DNA of 45,962 nt. Source: an uncultured Alphaproteobacteria bacterium (GTDB lineage: Bacteria; Pseudomonadota; Alphaproteobacteria; HIMB59). The notes below the pieces were generated by a model, which was given only the letters and a program-made list of their open reading frames with translations, had not been told where the DNA came from and did not search any database. How positions within the stretch are numbered: the stretch's first letter is position 1; each line of letters begins with the position of its first letter. The stretch spans positions 1 to 45,962 of the forward strand of contig CABXST010000005.1 of NCBI GenBank assembly GCA_902514885.1. The letters run 5' to 3'. Below are positions 14,050 to 22,885 of the stretch, one piece after another. Made by a program: the position numbers and the translations under genes.

Positions 14050-15126
14050 ATGAAAGTATTAATTTTAGGGTGTGGTTCAATTGGTAATCATTTGGCAAAT
14101 GCTTCACGTAGAATGGACTGGGAAGTTTCTATGTGTGATGTTGATCCTAATGCTATAAAACGAACAAAAGATTTAATTTATCCATCAAGATATGGTGGGT
14201 GGGATGATAAAATTAAATTTATAGAATTTCCAACAAGTGAGATATCAAAATTTGATATGGTTATTGTGGGTACCCCACCAGATACACATATAGATTTAGC
14301 ATTACAAGCCTTAAAAATTAAACCCAAATGTATTTTAATCGAGAAACCTCTATGTGGTTTAGACTTTTCAAATATCGATCAATTAATAAACTTAGCTGAT
14401 GAAGAAAATGTTAAACTTTTTATCGGATATGACCACTCTTTAAGTAAAGCTATTGCAGAGTTAAAAAGACTATTAGACAATAATAACTTTGGAAAAGTTG
14501 AAACAATTGATGTTGACTTCAGGGAAGAGTGGAGTGGTATTTTTGCTGCACATCCATGGCTGGATGGACCTTCGGATAGTTATCTCGGTTACTCAAAAAG
14601 AGGCGGTGGAGCCGCAGGAGAACATTCTCATGGAATACATTTATGGCAATATCTTTCAAAAATCTCTGGTCAAGGAACAGTCACCTCTGTTAATTGCACA
14701 ATGAAAAAATTCAAAGATTCATATGTCGATTATGATAAGCTCTCTATTATGAACTTTAAGACCGACAAAGGATTATTAGGAAAGTGTGTTCAAGATGTAA
14801 TAACTAAACCATCAAAAAAATCTGCTAGAGTCCAATTTGATAAAGGTTTTTTGAAGGTTAGTTTTGCACCAAAACTAGATATTATTTCCTACTCCATTGA
14901 AAACTCTAATGATATTAAAGAATTAAGATTTGAAAAAGACAGACCCTCTGACTTTATTTTAGAGTTGACTCATATTGACAAATGTATCAAAGGAGATTTT
15001 GATGTTGAAAATTCTCCAATTTCGATTAATCATGGTTTAGACGTTATGAAAATTATTAAAACTGCTCACATATCTAATGAATCAAATTCAATAGAATTTA
15101 TCAAACCTATTTCAGATTTAATTTAG
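14050..15126 (+). CDS. Gfo/Idh/MocA family oxidoreductase
   Basis: MKVLILGCGSIGNHL Rossmann motif, VGTPPDTHIDLA, ILIEKPL. Confidence 0.88.
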   Translation: MKVLILGCGSIGNHLANASRRMDWEVSMCDVDPNAIKRTKDLIYPSRYGGWDDKIKFIEFPTSEISKFDMVIVGTPPDTHIDLALQALKIKPKCILIEKPLCGLDFSNIDQLINLADEENVKLFIGYDHSLSKAIAELKRLLDNNNFGKVETIDVDFREEWSGIFAAHPWLDGPSDSYLGYSKRGGGAAGEHSHGIHLWQYLSKISGQGTVTSVNCTMKKFKDSYVDYDKLSIMNFKTDKGLLGKCVQDVITKPSKKSARVQFDKGFLKVSFAPKLDIISYSIENSNDIKELRFEKDRPSDFILELTHIDKCIKGDFDVENSPISINHGLDVMKIIKTAHISNESNSIEFIKPISDLI

Positions 15127-16692
15127 ATGAGTAGCTCAATTTTTGATGATTTAGTAATACTTGATATGGCAAATAACCATCAAGGAGATTTAACACATGG
15201 TTTAAAAATTATTCAGGATCACAGTAAAATTATAAAAAAAAATAATGTTAAAGCTGCACTAAAATTCCAATTTAGAGATTTACCTGATTTTGTTCATTCA
15301 TCTGCACGTAATAGCAAATCTAACAAACATATAAATCGTTTTTTATCCACTCAAATTTCGTGGGAGAATTTTTTATTAATGCAACAAGAGTGCGTAAAAT
15401 CTGGCTTACTTACAATATGCACACCATTTGATGAACCTTCAGTAGACAGAATAGTAGAAATGAAATTTGATTATATTAAAGTTGCAAGTTGTTCTGCTGG
15501 TGATTGGCCATTATTAGAGAAAATAGCTTTATCGGAATTACCAATCGTAATATCTACAGGTGGTTTAAGCCAGTCCGAAGTCGATGCTTTAGTAAGTTTT
15601 TTCTCTCATAAGGGTTGTTTATTTTCATTAATGCATTGTGTATCAATTTATCCAACGCCTGATCAAGAGTGTAACATATCTAATATATCAAAATTTTCTG
15701 AGAGATATCCTGCTCTAAACATAGGTTGGTCTACCCATGAATCGCCTCAAGATGAAATACATGTTGGCTTAGCCTTAGCTTCAGGAGCAACAATGTTTGA
15801 AAGACATGTTGGTATACCATTTAAAAATCAGCCCCTGAACGCATACTCCTCAACGCCCGATCAAATTGATAAATGGCTGCAATCATTGAAAAGATCAAAA
15901 GTTTTATTAGGAAGCAAAGACAGAAAATATGCAAGTAAGGAGGAGATAATAGCTATAAATGATTTAAAAAGAGGTGTTTACGCCATAAAAGATATAAATA
16001 AAAATGATTTATTAAATGATCAGAATGTAAAATATTTTTTTCCATGTATTGAAGGACAATTAAGTGCCGGAGAATTTTTAAGTAATTCAAAATGTAAAAT
16101 TTCTATCAAATCAGGCAATCCAATTATGATTGATTCAATTGATGTTAAAATAGATAAGGCAAAAGAACTTGAACTAAAGTTAAAGCATGCGATTCATGAA
16201 GTTAAAGCAATGTTAGCTGAGTCTAAAATTACTTTAGGAAGTCTTTTTCAAACAGAATATAGTCATCATTACGGTATAGATAATTTTAGAGAAATAGGGG
16301 CAGTATTAATTACTGTGGTTAACAGAAGTTATGCAAAGAAAATATTAATTCAATTACCAAATCAAAAACATCCACTTCACCTTCATAGATTAAAAGAAGA
16401 GACATTTATAGTTCTGAGTGGATCAATAGATTTTTGGTTAGAAGGTAAACATTATAATTTACAACCTGGTGAGCAATTAACCGTACCGCCAGGAACATGG
16501 CACGAATTTTATTCAGAGGAAGGCTGTATTGTTGAAGAAATCTCATCAACAGCCCATAAAGGGGATAGCGTATATAAAGATGATCAAATAAATAGCTTGT
16601 CATCTAATCAAAGAAAAACCAAGGTAGACAATTGGGGAAGATTTCAGATTATTGAGCAGCTCAAAAACAATCTGAATATTCCAATCGTTTAA
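15127..16692 (+). CDS. NeuB-like nonulosonate synthase fused to SAF-like and C-terminal cupin domain
   Basis: NeuB part: VILDMANNHQGDL, AALKFQFRDLP, YIKVASCSAGDWPL, PIVISTGG, HCVSIYPTP, GWSTHES, ERHVG; cupin part: HPLHLHRLKEETFIVLSGS...LTVPPGTWHEFYSEEG. Confidence 0.85.
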   Translation: MSSSIFDDLVILDMANNHQGDLTHGLKIIQDHSKIIKKNNVKAALKFQFRDLPDFVHSSARNSKSNKHINRFLSTQISWENFLLMQQECVKSGLLTICTPFDEPSVDRIVEMKFDYIKVASCSAGDWPLLEKIALSELPIVISTGGLSQSEVDALVSFFSHKGCLFSLMHCVSIYPTPDQECNISNISKFSERYPALNIGWSTHESPQDEIHVGLALASGATMFERHVGIPFKNQPLNAYSSTPDQIDKWLQSLKRSKVLLGSKDRKYASKEEIIAINDLKRGVYAIKDINKNDLLNDQNVKYFFPCIEGQLSAGEFLSNSKCKISIKSGNPIMIDSIDVKIDKAKELELKLKHAIHEVKAMLAESKITLGSLFQTEYSHHYGIDNFREIGAVLITVVNRSYAKKILIQLPNQKHPLHLHRLKEETFIVLSGSIDFWLEGKHYNLQPGEQLTVPPGTWHEFYSEEGCIVEEISSTAHKGDSVYKDDQINSLSSNQRKTKVDNWGRFQIIEQLKNNLNIPIV

Positions 16693-16707: not shown

Positions 16708-17313
16708 ATGATTAGCAGTTGTTGTTTTGACTTTGATGGAACATTAATAGACTCCAATAATATAAAAAAAAACTTTTTTAGAAATCTTGCATTATCACAT
16801 AACACCTCATGTGATATAGAAAAAATTATTTCAAAAAATAATTATACAAGATATGATATTTTTTTTGAAATATTTAAATATACAAGCTCACATATAAAAT
16901 TAGATGATGATTATATGAATAAATTAAGTGTTCAATTAGATCAAGCTGTATTAAATGCTCCACTTTTAAAAGGCGTTTTGAAACTTTTAACATCTTTAAA
17001 AACTATGGGTATAAAGTTATTTTTAGTATCTGCTACACCAAAAGATAGTCTAATAAATATACTTAAGAAAAAAAAAATATACACTTTCTTTGATAAAGTT
17101 TTTGGTTATCCCGAAAATAAAATCTTTGCTTTACAATATATAAAAAGTATCAATGATAAAAACATTTTAATGATTGGTGACGGTTTGGACGATAGAGAAG
17201 CTGCTGATTATAACAAAATTCCATTCCTATCTGTAGGTGAGGGTAGAGGCGCACACCTTGGTGAAGAAATATTTTCAATAAATAATATTTTGGATTATGT
17301 AAAAAATGTCTGA
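16708..17313 (+). CDS. HAD-superfamily phosphatase
   Basis: CFDFDGTLIDS (motif I DxDGT), LVSATP, MIGDGLDDREAA. Confidence 0.88.
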   Translation: MISSCCFDFDGTLIDSNNIKKNFFRNLALSHNTSCDIEKIISKNNYTRYDIFFEIFKYTSSHIKLDDDYMNKLSVQLDQAVLNAPLLKGVLKLLTSLKTMGIKLFLVSATPKDSLINILKKKKIYTFFDKVFGYPENKIFALQYIKSINDKNILMIGDGLDDREAADYNKIPFLSVGEGRGAHLGEEIFSINNILDYVKNV

Positions 17314-18208
17314 TAATAAGTGTATTTTATGTAATAAACATGATCTCAATCTCATTTATGAAGGGGACATTAGGGACGGAATTTATCCAAAAACAAAAAA
17401 ATCAAAAATATTATATTGTTCAAACTGTAATGTTGAAACGCTAGACTCCTCGCAACATTTAACAATTGATAATTATTCATCAGATGAATACAGATCAAAT
17501 CTAGATCAGTTCGATCCATATAAACATGAGTCAGAACATTTTAATCAATATTTATTTGCTAATGACATTATATCATCAATGCCAATTAAATTTACTGGTG
17601 AAACAATTTTAGACTCAGGTTCAGCATCTGGTAAAATTTTAGATATGTTTGGTAAAAATTTTATTAATAAATTAGCAGTTGAGCCTAGTTTCAAATTTAA
17701 AGAGATATTACAAAAAAAGAAATACACTTGGTTTAAAACACAATCAGATGCTTTGAAAAATTATAAAAATAAAGTTGACTTGATAATATCTTCTAAAGTA
17801 ATCGAACATGTCAATAATCCACTGAATTATCTAAAAGAAATTTATGACTTATTAAAAGAAGGAGGCAGAGCCGTAATAACAACTCCTAATAGGCAAGACA
17901 TTCTGTTAAATTCGATTGGAGAAAAATATTTTAAATTTTTTTATAGAACTCAACACCTCTGGTATTTTGACTCAAAATCATTGACATATACAGCTAATAA
18001 GGCTGGTTTCGATGAACCTCATATAGAATATAAACACTTTTATAATATAGACAATTTTCTTGTTTGGTATAAAACTCAAAAACCGGCTGGGAAATCAAAT
18101 AATATAGGTATCTTTGATAAAAAAATAAACGATTATTGGAAATCTTGGTTAATTAATAATGGTACATCGGACACTATGGTATTATTTCTGAAAAAACCTT
18201 ATAATTAA
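17306..18208 (+). CDS. SAM-dependent methyltransferase with N-terminal Cys4 zinc-binding segment
   Basis: CILC...YCSNC N-terminus; ILDSGSASGKILDMF, IISSKVIEHVNNPLNYLKEIYDLLKEGGRAVITTPN. Confidence 0.85.
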   Translation: MSDNKCILCNKHDLNLIYEGDIRDGIYPKTKKSKILYCSNCNVETLDSSQHLTIDNYSSDEYRSNLDQFDPYKHESEHFNQYLFANDIISSMPIKFTGETILDSGSASGKILDMFGKNFINKLAVEPSFKFKEILQKKKYTWFKTQSDALKNYKNKVDLIISSKVIEHVNNPLNYLKEIYDLLKEGGRAVITTPNRQDILLNSIGEKYFKFFYRTQHLWYFDSKSLTYTANKAGFDEPHIEYKHFYNIDNFLVWYKTQKPAGKSNNIGIFDKKINDYWKSWLINNGTSDTMVLFLKKPYN

Positions 18209-18215
18209 ATTAATC

Positions 18216-18926
18216 ATGAATATTCTTGCTGTTATACCTGCTAGAGGTGGATCAAAAGGTATAAAATTAAAAAATCTTCGTAAAATTAATGGAAAAACAT
18301 TAGTCGGTCTCACAATTGACTGTGCAAAAAAAGTTAAAGAAATCTCAAATATAGTAGTATCTACTGACTCAGAATTAATTAAAGAAGAGGCAATAAGTAA
18401 TGGAATTGAAGTACCATTTTTAAGACCCAAAAGTATCTCTGGAGATAGAGTAGCTGATTTACCAGTGTTAAAACATGCTTTGATTGAGTCTGAGAAATAT
18501 TGGAAAAAAAAATTTCATTCTATTCTAATGCTTCAACCAACTTCTCCACTCAGAAACTCAAAGATTGTGTCTAAGGCGTGTCTTACTCTTAAAAATAAAA
18601 ATATTCAATCAGTTTGGAGCATATCTCAAAGTGACCCAAAATATCATCCTCTAAAACAATTAATAATTTCAGAAAAAGATTTTCTAGATTACTATGATAA
18701 AAACGGTTTTAAAATTATTGCAAGACAGCAATTAAGTAAACTTTATCACAGAAATGGTGCTGTTTATGGATTTCAAAGAGAAACAATTTTGAATCTCGAT
18801 AAAATAATGCCAAAAAAAACTAGCTATATTCTTTGTAGAAATCCTCAAATATCAATAGACAATGAAAATGATATAGAATTAGCTCACTTTTATTTAAATA
18901 AACATAATAATTTTAGTAAAGTCTGA
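18216..18926 (+). CDS. Acylneuraminate cytidylyltransferase family protein (CMP-sugar acid synthetase, NeuA-like)
   Basis: AVIPARGGSKGIKLKNLRKINGKTLVGLTID, VVSTDSELI, LMLQPTSPLRN. Confidence 0.9.
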   Translation: MNILAVIPARGGSKGIKLKNLRKINGKTLVGLTIDCAKKVKEISNIVVSTDSELIKEEAISNGIEVPFLRPKSISGDRVADLPVLKHALIESEKYWKKKFHSILMLQPTSPLRNSKIVSKACLTLKNKNIQSVWSISQSDPKYHPLKQLIISEKDFLDYYDKNGFKIIARQQLSKLYHRNGAVYGFQRETILNLDKIMPKKTSYILCRNPQISIDNENDIELAHFYLNKHNNFSKV

Positions 18927-18943
18927 TTTGATGAAAGGTGATT

Positions 18944-19951
18944 ATGTCTAAAAAATTGATAAATGGAAAATCTATTTTAGTAACTGGAGGCACGGGATCA
19001 TTTGGAACTAAATTTTGTGAGACTGTATTAAAAAATTATAACCCCGCTCGTTTAATTATTTTTTCTCGAGATGAAATGAAACAGTGGGAAATGCAAGCTA
19101 ATTTTGAAAACGATGATAGAGTCCGTTTTTTTATTGGTGATGTTAGAGATAGCGATCGTTTAGGTATAGCGCTTAGAGGTGTTGATTATGTAATACATGC
19201 TGCTGCCCAAAAAATTTTACCTATAGCTGAATATAATCCTTTTGAATGTGTAAAGACAAATATTAATGGTGCAAGTAACATTATAGATCAATGTATAAGA
19301 CAAGGTGTAAAAAAAGTTGTGGCATTGTCAACAGATAAGGCTAGTAGCCCATGCAATCTTTATGGAGCAACAAAACTAGTTTCAGATAGACTTTTCATTG
19401 CTGGTAACTCCTATTCAGGAAAATCTGGAACTATTTTTTCAGTTGTCAGATATGGCAATGTAATGGGTTCACGAGGGTCTGTAATTCCTTTCTTTTATAA
19501 ATTAGGACAAGAGGGAAAAGATATCCCAATAACTGATCCAGAGATGACTAGATTTATGATTTCTTTAGAGCAGGGTATAGATTTAGTTATTAAATCATTA
19601 AACGAGTCCAAAGGAGGTGAAATATTTGTAAAAAAAATTCCATCAATGAATATAGTTGATATAGCAAATACTGTAGCGCCTGATGCTAAGCATAAAATAA
19701 TTGGAATTCGGCCTGGAGAAAAACTTCATGAAGAAATGATAGCTAAAACCGACTCAGCACAAACCTTTGAGTATAATGATTATTATAAAATATTACCTTC
19801 AATATATAATTGGAGATCTGATCCAAAAAGACTAAAAGGCGGAAAAAAAGTCAAAAATAACTTCCAATACGCCTCAAATACAAATTCAAAATGGATGACC
19901 TCGAGAATATTAACAAAATGGCTTAATAATAACATAGGAAAAATTCAATGA
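18944..19951 (+). CDS. pseB: UDP-GlcNAc 4,6-dehydratase (inverting), PseB
   Basis: SILVTGGTGSFGTKFCETVL, FSRDEMKQWEM, VIHAAAQKILPIAEYNPFECVKTNINGA, STDKASSPCNLYGATK; ATG at 18944 with upstream AAAGGTG. Confidence 0.92.
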   Translation: MSKKLINGKSILVTGGTGSFGTKFCETVLKNYNPARLIIFSRDEMKQWEMQANFENDDRVRFFIGDVRDSDRLGIALRGVDYVIHAAAQKILPIAEYNPFECVKTNINGASNIIDQCIRQGVKKVVALSTDKASSPCNLYGATKLVSDRLFIAGNSYSGKSGTIFSVVRYGNVMGSRGSVIPFFYKLGQEGKDIPITDPEMTRFMISLEQGIDLVIKSLNESKGGEIFVKKIPSMNIVDIANTVAPDAKHKIIGIRPGEKLHEEMIAKTDSAQTFEYNDYYKILPSIYNWRSDPKRLKGGKKVKNNFQYASNTNSKWMTSRILTKWLNNNIGKIQ

Positions 19952-21105
19952 TTCCTTATAGCACTCAAGAGATAGATCAAGATGATATTGATGCCGTAAC
20001 TGATACTTTAAAATCAAATTGGCTTACACAAGGCCCTAAAGTTAGTCAATTTGAAAAAATTTTATCAAAAAATTGCGAGTCCAAATATTGTATCACATTT
20101 AACAGTGCTACAAGTGCCTTACATGCAGCATGCTCTTCATTTGACCTTGGCCCAGGAGATAATGTTTGGACATCTGCAAATACATTTGCTGCTACTGCAA
20201 ATGTAGTACTACTATGCGGAGCAAAAATTGATTTTCTAGACATAGACCCAGAAACATTAAATATTGATGTTAATATTTTAGAAGATAAATTAAAGAACGC
20301 ATCAATCTCAGGAACTTTACCAAAATTATTAATAACTGTTCATTTTTCAGGTGAATCTTGTGATATGAAATCAATACATGACCTTAGTTTGAAGTATGGC
20401 TTTAAAATTTTGGAAGACGCATCTCATGCGTTGGGTGCTACATATAATTCAAAACCTATAGGATCATGTGAGTTTTCATCAATGACAGTCTTTAGTTTTC
20501 ATCCAGTTAAGATGATCACAACAGGAGAAGGTGGGTGTGTCACAACAAACTCAAAAATTATTGAGGAAAAAGTTAGAGATTTTGGAAGACATGGAATTAC
20601 AAAAGAAAAAGAGAGGTTTAGTGTAATTCAAAATTTAGATTGGTATTATGAGCAACAATCTTTGGGATATAACTATAGAATGAATGAGCTTTCTGCATCT
20701 TTAGGAATAAGCCAGTTATCAAAATTAAATTATTTTGTAAAGACAAGAAATGATCTTGCAGAAAATTACAATAAAATTTTACCTAAACAGATTATTATTC
20801 CAAAAAGAAATAATTTTAATACATGCAGTTACCATCTATATCCAATTTTACTTCCTGATAAGCCTAACCTAAAAAGAGATAACCTATTTTTACATTTAAG
20901 AAAATTAAATTTTGGTGTTCAGGTTCATTATATTCCAGTTTATCATCACCCGTATTATAGAAATAATGGTTTTAAAGATTATTTTTTAAATAACGCTGAA
21001 AGTTATTTTAAAAGGTGTTTAAGTTTACCTTTATTCCCATCTTTAAAAAAGGGAGATCAAAAACAAGTTTCTTCGGCAATTGAAAGTTTTTTAAAGACAT
21101 ATTAA
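19948..21105 (+). CDS. pseC: UDP-4-keto-6-deoxy-HexNAc 4-aminotransferase (DegT/DnrJ/EryC1 family), PseC
   Basis: IPYSTQEIDQDDIDAVTDTLKSNWLTQGPKVSQFE, ILEDASHALGATY, FSFHPVKMITTGEGGCVTT (PLP Lys), GYNYRMNELSASLG. Confidence 0.92.
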   Translation: MIPYSTQEIDQDDIDAVTDTLKSNWLTQGPKVSQFEKILSKNCESKYCITFNSATSALHAACSSFDLGPGDNVWTSANTFAATANVVLLCGAKIDFLDIDPETLNIDVNILEDKLKNASISGTLPKLLITVHFSGESCDMKSIHDLSLKYGFKILEDASHALGATYNSKPIGSCEFSSMTVFSFHPVKMITTGEGGCVTTNSKIIEEKVRDFGRHGITKEKERFSVIQNLDWYYEQQSLGYNYRMNELSASLGISQLSKLNYFVKTRNDLAENYNKILPKQIIIPKRNNFNTCSYHLYPILLPDKPNLKRDNLFLHLRKLNFGVQVHYIPVYHHPYYRNNGFKDYFLNNAESYFKRCLSLPLFPSLKKGDQKQVSSAIESFLKTY

Positions 21106-21117
21106 CTAGGAAATAAT

Positions 21118-22200
21118 TTGAAAAATTCAAAAATCTTTTCAATTAATGGTAGAAAAATTGGACCAGATTTTCCACCTTACATTGTCGCTGAAATGTCAGG
21201 CAATCATAACCAAAGTATAGAAAAAGCTTTTAAACTTATTAATAAAGCGAAAGAGTCAGGTGCTGATGCTATTAAAATTCAAACATTCACTCCAGATACA
21301 ATTACAATTAATCATAATTCCCCAGAATTTTTCGTAAAAGGTGGTATTTGGGATGGAAGAAAACTTTATGACTTATATGAGGAAGCTCATACCCCATGGG
21401 ATTGGCATAAAAAATTATTTGAATATGCTAGAAATGTTGGGATTACCATTTTTTCATCTCCGTTTGATAATACTGCAATTGACCTTCTAGAGTCACTTGA
21501 TTGCCCAGCATATAAAATAGCTTCTCCAGAAATTGTGGACCATGAGCTTATTAAATATGCAGCAAAAACACAAAAACCAATTATCATATCAACTGGTATG
21601 GCATCAAAAAAAGAAATACACGACTCAATTAAAATTGCTAGAAAATATGGTTCAAACGAAATAATAGTTCTTCACTGTACCTCATCTTATCCGACTCCAT
21701 TTAATGAGTCAAATCTATCAACTATGAATGAAATAAAGAATTCTTTTGATATAATGGTAGGACTTTCAGATCATACTGAGGGAACATTGGTCTCATCAAT
21801 TTCAGTTTCGATGGGGGCTGTTTTAGTAGAAAAACACTTCACAATTGATCGCAAAGAGGGAGGCATAGATAGTAAATTCTCTTTAGAACCCCAAGAGCTT
21901 AAAGAACTTGTGTTACATGCAAATATAGCTACTAAAATTAATGGAAAACCATCATTTATGCCTACACATAGTGAAAAGTCCGTATTTGATAACAGAAGAT
22001 CTATATATGTGGTAAATAATATTCTTAAAGGTGAAATATTTAGCAATAAAAATATAAAATCTATCCGTCCAGGTTTGGGGTTAAGCCCAAAATATATGTC
22101 AAATGTTTTAGGTCTTTCCGCTTCGAGAGATTTAAAATTTGGTGAACCTTTAGAACTATCTATGATAAGTGAAAAATTTCAAACAAATCTTGATGACTAA
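21118..22200 (+). CDS. pseI: Pseudaminic acid synthase PseI (NeuB family)
   Basis: GPDFPPYIVAEMSGNHNQSIEKAF, DAIKIQTFTPDTIT, YKIASPEIVDHELI, VGLSDHTEGT, EKHFTIDRKEGGIDSKFSLEP; SAF domain; TTG start. Confidence 0.92.
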   Translation: MKNSKIFSINGRKIGPDFPPYIVAEMSGNHNQSIEKAFKLINKAKESGADAIKIQTFTPDTITINHNSPEFFVKGGIWDGRKLYDLYEEAHTPWDWHKKLFEYARNVGITIFSSPFDNTAIDLLESLDCPAYKIASPEIVDHELIKYAAKTQKPIIISTGMASKKEIHDSIKIARKYGSNEIIVLHCTSSYPTPFNESNLSTMNEIKNSFDIMVGLSDHTEGTLVSSISVSMGAVLVEKHFTIDRKEGGIDSKFSLEPQELKELVLHANIATKINGKPSFMPTHSEKSVFDNRRSIYVVNNILKGEIFSNKNIKSIRPGLGLSPKYMSNVLGLSASRDLKFGEPLELSMISEKFQTNLDD

Positions 22201-22885
22201 ATCAATTTGTATAATACCCGCTAGAGGGGGAAGTAAAAGAATTCCGAGAAAAAATATGAAATTATTTAGAAAAAAACCAATTATTTTATGGTCTATCAAT
22301 GCAGCCAAATTATCAAAATCATTTGATGAAATTATGGTTTCTACTGATGATAAAAATATTGCTGAATATGCAAGAAATAATGGAGTGAACGTGCCATTTA
22401 TGCGTTCAAAGTTAAATTCAGATGATAAGTCAACCACTTCTGATGTAATATTTGAAGTACTTAAGAATTACAATAATAAGGGAAAAAAATTTGATTTAGC
22501 TTGTTGTTTATATCCCACTGCTCCATTAATTACGTCAAAAAGTATCAATAATGGTAAGTTAGAACTTACAAGAAGTAAGTTTAATGTGATTATGCCTGTA
22601 ACTAAATTGAATCCTTCAATTTGGAGATCATTCAATAGAAAAAAAAATGGTTTAATAGAATTAAATTTTCCCAAAAATATTTCTACCAGAAGTCAAGATC
22701 TACCTATTACATATTTAGATGCTGGTCAATGGTATTGGTTTTGGGTTAAGCCTTTTTTAAAAAGTAAAAGCTTAATTGGAAATAAAACTGGTTCAATTGT
22801 TTTATCCAACGATGTTGCTCAGGATATTGACACTGAGGAAGATTGGAAAGAGGCTGAAAGAAAACATAAAATTTTATTTAAATGA
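22193..22885 (+). CDS. pseF: Pseudaminic acid cytidylyltransferase PseF
   Basis: MTKSICIIPARGGSKRIPRKNMKLFRKKPIILWSINAA, MVSTDDKNIAEYA, CLYPTAPLIT; ATG at 22193 overlaps pseI stop. Confidence 0.9.
   Translation: MTKSICIIPARGGSKRIPRKNMKLFRKKPIILWSINAAKLSKSFDEIMVSTDDKNIAEYARNNGVNVPFMRSKLNSDDKSTTSDVIFEVLKNYNNKGKKFDLACCLYPTAPLITSKSINNGKLELTRSKFNVIMPVTKLNPSIWRSFNRKKNGLIELNFPKNISTRSQDLPITYLDAGQWYWFWVKPFLKSKSLIGNKTGSIVLSNDVAQDIDTEEDWKEAERKHKILFK

Follow-up and report, generated by a model that had tools for sequence, protein, structure and literature searches.

What would a cupin related to sugar isomerases contribute to a nonulosonate synthase when the two are made as one polypeptide? The question is raised by a gene at 15127-16692 (plus strand) of the window, a 45,962-nucleotide stretch of contig CABXST010000005.1 from an uncultured alphaproteobacterium of the HIMB59 lineage. 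The gene is one intact open reading frame of 521 residues with no internal stop codon or frameshift, and its ATG directly follows the stop codon of the upstream Gfo/Idh gene.

Three domains in one polypeptide

A sequence-only reading of this DNA had proposed a NeuB barrel, an SAF-like cap and a C-terminal cupin, and this three-part architecture is borne out by Pfam, a confident structural model and fold matches, together with the open reading frame call and an alignment of relatives. The motifs on which that reading drew (GWSTHES, ERHVG, RGVYAIKDINKNDLL, HPLHLHRLKEE and PPGTWHEF) are all present in the open reading frame. Pfam places NeuB at residues 44-264 (1e-36) and Cupin_2 at residues 411-464 (1e-12), and also reports Lyx_isomer (9e-12, above the cut-off). 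AlphaFold2, supplied with 42 aligned sequences, modelled the full fusion with a mean pLDDT of 91.0 and a pTM of 0.77, and the cupin alone at 88.7.

The NeuB-type (beta/alpha)8 barrel occupies residues 1-278 (15127-15960, plus strand), as indicated by Pfam, alignment columns and fold matches to 3G8R, 1XUU and 8H2C. Foldseek ranked 3G8R first for the N-terminal part (TM 0.95), ahead of Neisseria meningitidis NeuB and Campylobacter jejuni PseI. The SAF/antifreeze-like cap spans residues 279-341 approximately (15961-16149, plus strand); Pfam SAF (PF08666) has no match in the fusion protein at an E-value of 0.001, but barrel and cap together superimpose on 3G8R with a TM of 0.95 over 334 columns. 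The remainder, from about residue 344 to 521 (16156-16692, plus strand), is a cupin of the D-lyxose isomerase type according to Pfam, profile search, Foldseek and alignment columns.

A conserved fused family

About 50 full-length relatives of the NeuB-cupin fusion were found across many phyla, which rules out a chance fusion or an assembly error. A single scan of GTDB genome contigs yielded 43 loci, and hosts include Pseudomonadota, Thermodesulfobacteriota, Myxococcota, Nitrospirota, Verrucomicrobiota, Lentisphaerota, Acidobacteriota, Bacillota, Actinomycetota, Patescibacteria, Omnitrophota, Aminicenantes and one archaeal MAG. Our alignment (n=42) sets the fusion against 41 relatives of nearly full length, of which IMG/VR contigs supplied three, and these relatives share 38-53% identity with the fusion; 59 columns are invariant, 24 of them within the cupin. 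A cupin-only query matched 11 of 398 Pseudomonadota genomes, with all 11 matches inside open reading frames of 502-547 residues and no stand-alone copies of the cupin among the 398, consistent with a conserved fused architecture. The three IMG/VR 'viral' contigs (L067, L068 and L069) bear the full fusion gene; phage records held no relatives, and plasmid records only PseI-like barrels at 24-28% identity. A 373-residue barrel of the family without a cupin was also observed (L077/L100, G108:C2), beside a ThDP ligase; no cupin lies within roughly 9 kb of it.

Within the family of the HIMB59 contig, the fusion occurs in one of 52 genomes, that of the source, and is thus a patchy trait of this lineage, probably an acquired one. 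We found no published characterization of a NeuB-cupin fusion in the open-access literature, so this family is apparently uncharacterized, although a NeuB joined to an unrelated isomerase-type domain is already known from Serratia.

The barrel keeps the synthase residues and probably lacks N-acetyl recognition

The fusion is a clear member of the NeuB superfamily (PF03102; 127 bits against a cut-off of 22.1) and falls well below the NCBIfam equivalog cut-offs of N-acetylneuraminate synthase (125 versus 400 bits) and PseI (123 versus 340 bits). N. meningitidis NeuB and C. jejuni PseI share its barrel fold and PEP/metal residues at 22-24% identity, but neither carries a cupin. Residues K46, Q48, T99, K118, S121, Y175, S202, H204, E225 and H227, corresponding to PEP/metal residues, are invariant in the 42 sequences.

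The acceptor site differs. In N. meningitidis NeuB, the cap residue Arg314 positions the N-acetyl group of ManNAc, and the R314A variant is inactive (PMC6795526). The aligned position in the fusion family, residue 305, is M, I, F or W in 42/42 sequences and Arg in none, and the acceptor is therefore probably not recognized as an N-acetyl sugar. The earlier suggestion of a non-standard acceptor holds in this form, although one of its two arguments does not: ERH was taken as a departure from the EKH of canonical NeuB, but N. meningitidis NeuB itself carries ERH, and R and K alternate at this position within the fusion family (29 to 13). The other observation, absence of the PDH-type residue, is confirmed: at the PGPD Asp the alignment places Leu237, followed by an invariant Asn238. 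Invariant R50 and R71 in the barrel, along with H380, H381, K404 and R496-K497-T498 in the cupin, could be phosphate binders.

The cupin is kin to D-lyxose isomerases

Resemblance of the cupin to D-lyxose- and phosphomannose-type isomerases had been noted from its motifs, and profile, fold and column counts agree in assigning it to the D-lyxose/D-mannose isomerase kind with a full metal and acid-base set. The best PDB sequences for the cupin profile are the D-lyxose isomerases of Bacillus subtilis (2Y0O, 2e-16) and Thermofilum (7NZO, 5e-16), and the match covers the helix and strand preceding the cupin barrel in addition to the cupin motifs. Foldseek on the predicted cupin fold returned D-lyxose isomerases as all of its top 10 (including 2Y0O, 7NZO/P/Q and 3KMH/3MPB), with phosphomannose isomerases, KdgF and quercetinases ranked below. 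The fusion exceeds the cut-off of the D-lyxose isomerase family PF07385 (45 versus 20.8 bits), as do 29 of 30 members; it falls below those of the D-lyxose/D-mannose isomerase equivalog NF051472 (29 versus 350 bits) and type II phosphomannose isomerase PF01050 (22.0 versus 23.6 bits).

In the D-lyxose isomerase TsLI, mannose or fructose is held by K62, H75, H77, K86, E88, H143, E156 and D163; mutants at the K86, E156 and D163 positions are dead and those at E88 crippled (PMC8378251). Seven of these eight residues are retained in the cupin, where the first seven align, in order, with K405, H418, H420, K423, E425, H459 and E471. Five are invariant (H420, K423, E425, H459 and E471), with K405 kept in 40/42 and H418 in 37/42 sequences, and H418, H420, E425 and H459 form the predicted metal set. 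D163, essential in this enzyme family, is unmatched in the alignment, and its candidate equivalent, the invariant D480, fits only after a two-residue shift. The stand-alone enzymes 2Y0O, 7NZO and 3KMH share the fold, the metal set, the catalytic K/E positions and the pre-cupin homology but have DYG or DFG where the fusion has a conserved HHYG (380-383), and lack its invariant K404; the fusion cupin also carries an invariant RKT (496-498). In five relatives (L026, L037, L039, L068 and L069) H418 is replaced by Gln (HPEQYH). Taken together, the residue pattern makes it likely that the cupin is a catalytic isomerase.

This assignment bears on a different role, in which the cupin would serve as sensor or lid, binding a sugar or a metal to regulate the barrel but performing no chemistry of its own. 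Many cupins are non-enzymatic, and H418 is Gln in five relatives, but K423, E425, H459 and E471 are kept in every sequence and match residues vital to lyxose isomerase (PMC8378251), so we consider this role improbable. Least probable of all is a cupin acting after the barrel to isomerize or epimerize the ulosonic acid product: sugar-acid cupins such as KdgF do appear among the fold matches, but they rank under all lyxose isomerases, which work at C1-C2 of a free aldose or ketose, a group that a 2-ulosonic acid does not offer.

Two clades with different gene neighborhoods

A tree of 51 fusion sequences with a PseI outgroup, built by a quick method and with L052-L056 on long, unreliable branches, resolves two main clades (SH-aLRT 100 for the clade B branch and 92 for clade A). 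Neighboring genes were counted with HMMs built from the same loci and run on six-frame translations; some of the contigs counted are truncated and some of the MAGs are related, so the counts do not represent independent events. Of the 26 clade A loci, several of them truncated, 22 have Gfo/Idh, 19 a HAD enzyme and 17 a CMP transferase, while none has a ThDP enzyme or RfbH. Clade B (24 loci) has a ThDP ligase at 21, RfbH at 13, glucose-1-P cytidylyltransferase at 11, a HAD-type enzyme at 9, a CMP transferase at one and Gfo/Idh at none. The five relatives with Gln in place of H418 belong to clade B, as does the closest relative of 3G8R (59% identity to L026). This C. violaceum 'SpsE' structure from structural genomics represents the barrel and SAF domain of the fusion's own family; its 350-residue chain is without a cupin, which is true of the solved chain and may differ in the native protein, and we found no function for it.

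The source locus, part of a surface-sugar cluster in a marine bacterium, is typical of clade A. All on the plus strand, the Gfo/Idh/MocA oxidoreductase (14050-15126) and the fusion are followed by a HAD-type phosphatase (16708-17313) conserved downstream in clade A, a SAM methyltransferase (17306-18208) whose family is present in four other clade A loci, and a CMP-nonulosonate synthetase-like cytidylyltransferase (18216-18926). The closest solved relative of the last is N. meningitidis NeuA (1e-26, versus 1e-5 for KdsB), and since it lies near NeuA and far from KdsB, the product of the source locus is likelier to be a nonulosonate than an octulosonate, judged by sequence. PseB, PseC, PseI and PseF (18938-22885), all above NCBIfam cut-offs, directly follow this Kdn-like set, which may allow the strain to produce two distinct nonulosonates. 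A conserved family of approximately 455 residues lies upstream of the clade A cluster, ahead of Gfo/Idh, at nine loci (L003, L004, L006, L007, L009, L010, L014, L018 and L023); its typical start is IIMPVENQVREMDAKILLSC, and the two members scanned had no Pfam match.

A proposed bifunctional isomerase-synthase in clade A

The best explanation, to which we assign a probability of about 0.55, is that the fusion is a bifunctional isomerase-synthase, with a fructose-6-P/mannose-6-P/Kdn route favored. The Mn-type C-terminal cupin would interconvert the ketose and aldose forms of a sugar or sugar phosphate, and the SAF-capped barrel would join that aldose with PEP to give a 3-deoxy-2-ulosonic acid. 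In clade A, the adjoining HAD enzyme would then strip phosphate from the ulosonate and the adjoining cytidylyltransferase would form the CMP-sugar. The favored path would run from fructose-6-P through mannose-6-P, Kdn-9-P and Kdn to CMP-Kdn, or may end in a close Kdn relative modified by the Gfo/Idh enzyme and the methyltransferase, whose roles are putative, as are the direction of isomerization and any channelling to the barrel.

That isomerization feeds the barrel is, on balance, probable. The phosphatase adjoining the synthase, as in the Kdn route, suggests by analogy a phosphorylated ulosonate as the barrel product, and such a product, supported by conserved neighbors, fits isomerization coupled to PEP condensation. 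The identity of the sugar is more tentative, and a Kdn-type product made from mannose-6-P is one candidate; a mannose/fructose-type isomerase joined to a synthase without N-acetyl recognition fits the conversion of fructose-6-P to mannose-6-P and Kdn-9-P. The usual companions of a Kdn-9-P synthase, a phosphatase and a CMP-sugar synthetase, are those counted above at 19 and 17 of the 26 clade A loci. We know of no isomerase domain in the Kdn-9-P synthases of Bacteroides thetaiotaomicron and Prymnesium parvum, which are likened to the fusion by chemistry, not sequence: they use PEP and mannose-6-P and are followed by a phosphatase and a CMP-Kdn synthetase, as proposed here. Kdn-9-P synthesis from PEP and mannose-6-P is established for P. 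parvum (PMC6200933).

Several observations count against this model. The conserved Gfo/Idh step is unaccounted for, H418 is Gln in five relatives and the cupin-less barrel L077 exists. TsLI D163 has no counterpart in the alignment unless the two-residue shift to D480 is allowed, and D-lyxose isomerases act on free sugars and vary in specificity. A dedicated isomerase for mannose-6-P is also not obviously needed, because most genomes of the genus (34/52) possess a type II phosphomannose isomerase. None was found in the source genome (58% complete), but the idea that the host needs the fusion for want of this enzyme is unsupported given its presence in the genus.

The foremost alternative keeps the cupin catalytic but gives it another substrate, either a keto-sugar or keto-sugar phosphate supplied by the Gfo/Idh enzyme or a C4, C5 or C7 ketose, leading to an epimer or another chain length instead of Kdn. 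The frequent Gfo/Idh gene beside the clade A fusion (22/26) and the different end use of the clade B product are in its favor, as is the variation in substrate specificity among lyxose isomerases (PMC8378251). We nevertheless find it unlikely, as clade B has the same cupin with Gfo/Idh nearby at 0/24 loci, which argues that the cupin is independent of Gfo/Idh, and as the cytidylyltransferase is nearest to a nonulosonate enzyme, not to KdsB.

The isomerase-synthase model has a genetic precedent by analogy in the NeuB of Serratia marcescens KL1/KL2, likewise a synthase fused to an isomerase/epimerase-type domain (PMC9000132), which shows that the isomerase-type domains found fused to NeuB have unrelated folds: the Serratia domain is COG1082, a xylose-isomerase-like TIM barrel unlike the cupin, and the fusion protein has no Pfam match to AP_endonuc_2/COG1082. 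In strain UMH9, deletion of neuB abolished sialic acid (thiobarbituric assay) and capsule, the capsule contains Kdn over Neu5Ac at approximately 20:1, and Kdn was gone when the whole capsule region was deleted (PMC9000132). A 778-residue CBS-NeuB-SAF-AP_endonuc_2 protein adjoining a cytidylyltransferase-like open reading frame (L083, 505-2838, minus strand) is perhaps a second NeuB-isomerase architecture resembling the Serratia NeuB.

Clade B and a possible role in branched CDP-sugars

Clade B loci combine glucose-1-P cytidylyltransferase, CDP-glucose 4,6-dehydratase and RfbH with a ThDP enzyme that, among PDB entries, matches JanthE best (8RPH, 451 bits). In clade B (L026-L039 and L059-L066), the fusion adjoins this YerE/JanthE-like ligase at the 21 of 24 loci counted above, often in CDP-glucose/RfbH clusters. 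Ligases of the YerE type remove the carboxyl group of an alpha-keto acid and attach the remainder to a CDP-4-keto-deoxysugar (PMC12247030, PMC12188165); ErwE and MMAR_2332 favor donors that are hydroxylated and exceed C4 in length (PMC12247030). A 3-deoxy-2-ulosonic acid is a hydroxylated alpha-keto acid of just this kind, and the clade B fusion could thus be the source of the donor for the neighboring ligase, a proposal that we hold at somewhat under even odds. A link to mycobacterial caryophyllose is chemically attractive, because its hydroxylated C6 branch bears no substituent at the second carbon (PMC5706390), and decarboxylative addition of a 3,7-dideoxy-2-heptulosonate would leave such a branch; for M. 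marinum the link is unsupported, the fusion gene having been found in one of 301 Mycobacteriaceae genomes.

Joined together, the two contexts tentatively describe a widespread one-polypeptide family that would turn ketose phosphates into 3-deoxy-2-ulosonic acids, destined in clade A for CMP-activated Kdn-like sugars and in clade B for YerE/JanthE-like ligases as donors for branched CDP-sugars. The natural substrates of JanthE are still unidentified (PMC12188165), and the clade B context makes the question of its physiological substrate testable. If the isomerase-synthase model is right, the fusion would be a further joining of NeuB to an isomerase, alongside the Serratia NeuB, whose isomerase-type domain is unrelated, and one gene would mark the production of Kdn-type sugars in many uncultured bacteria.
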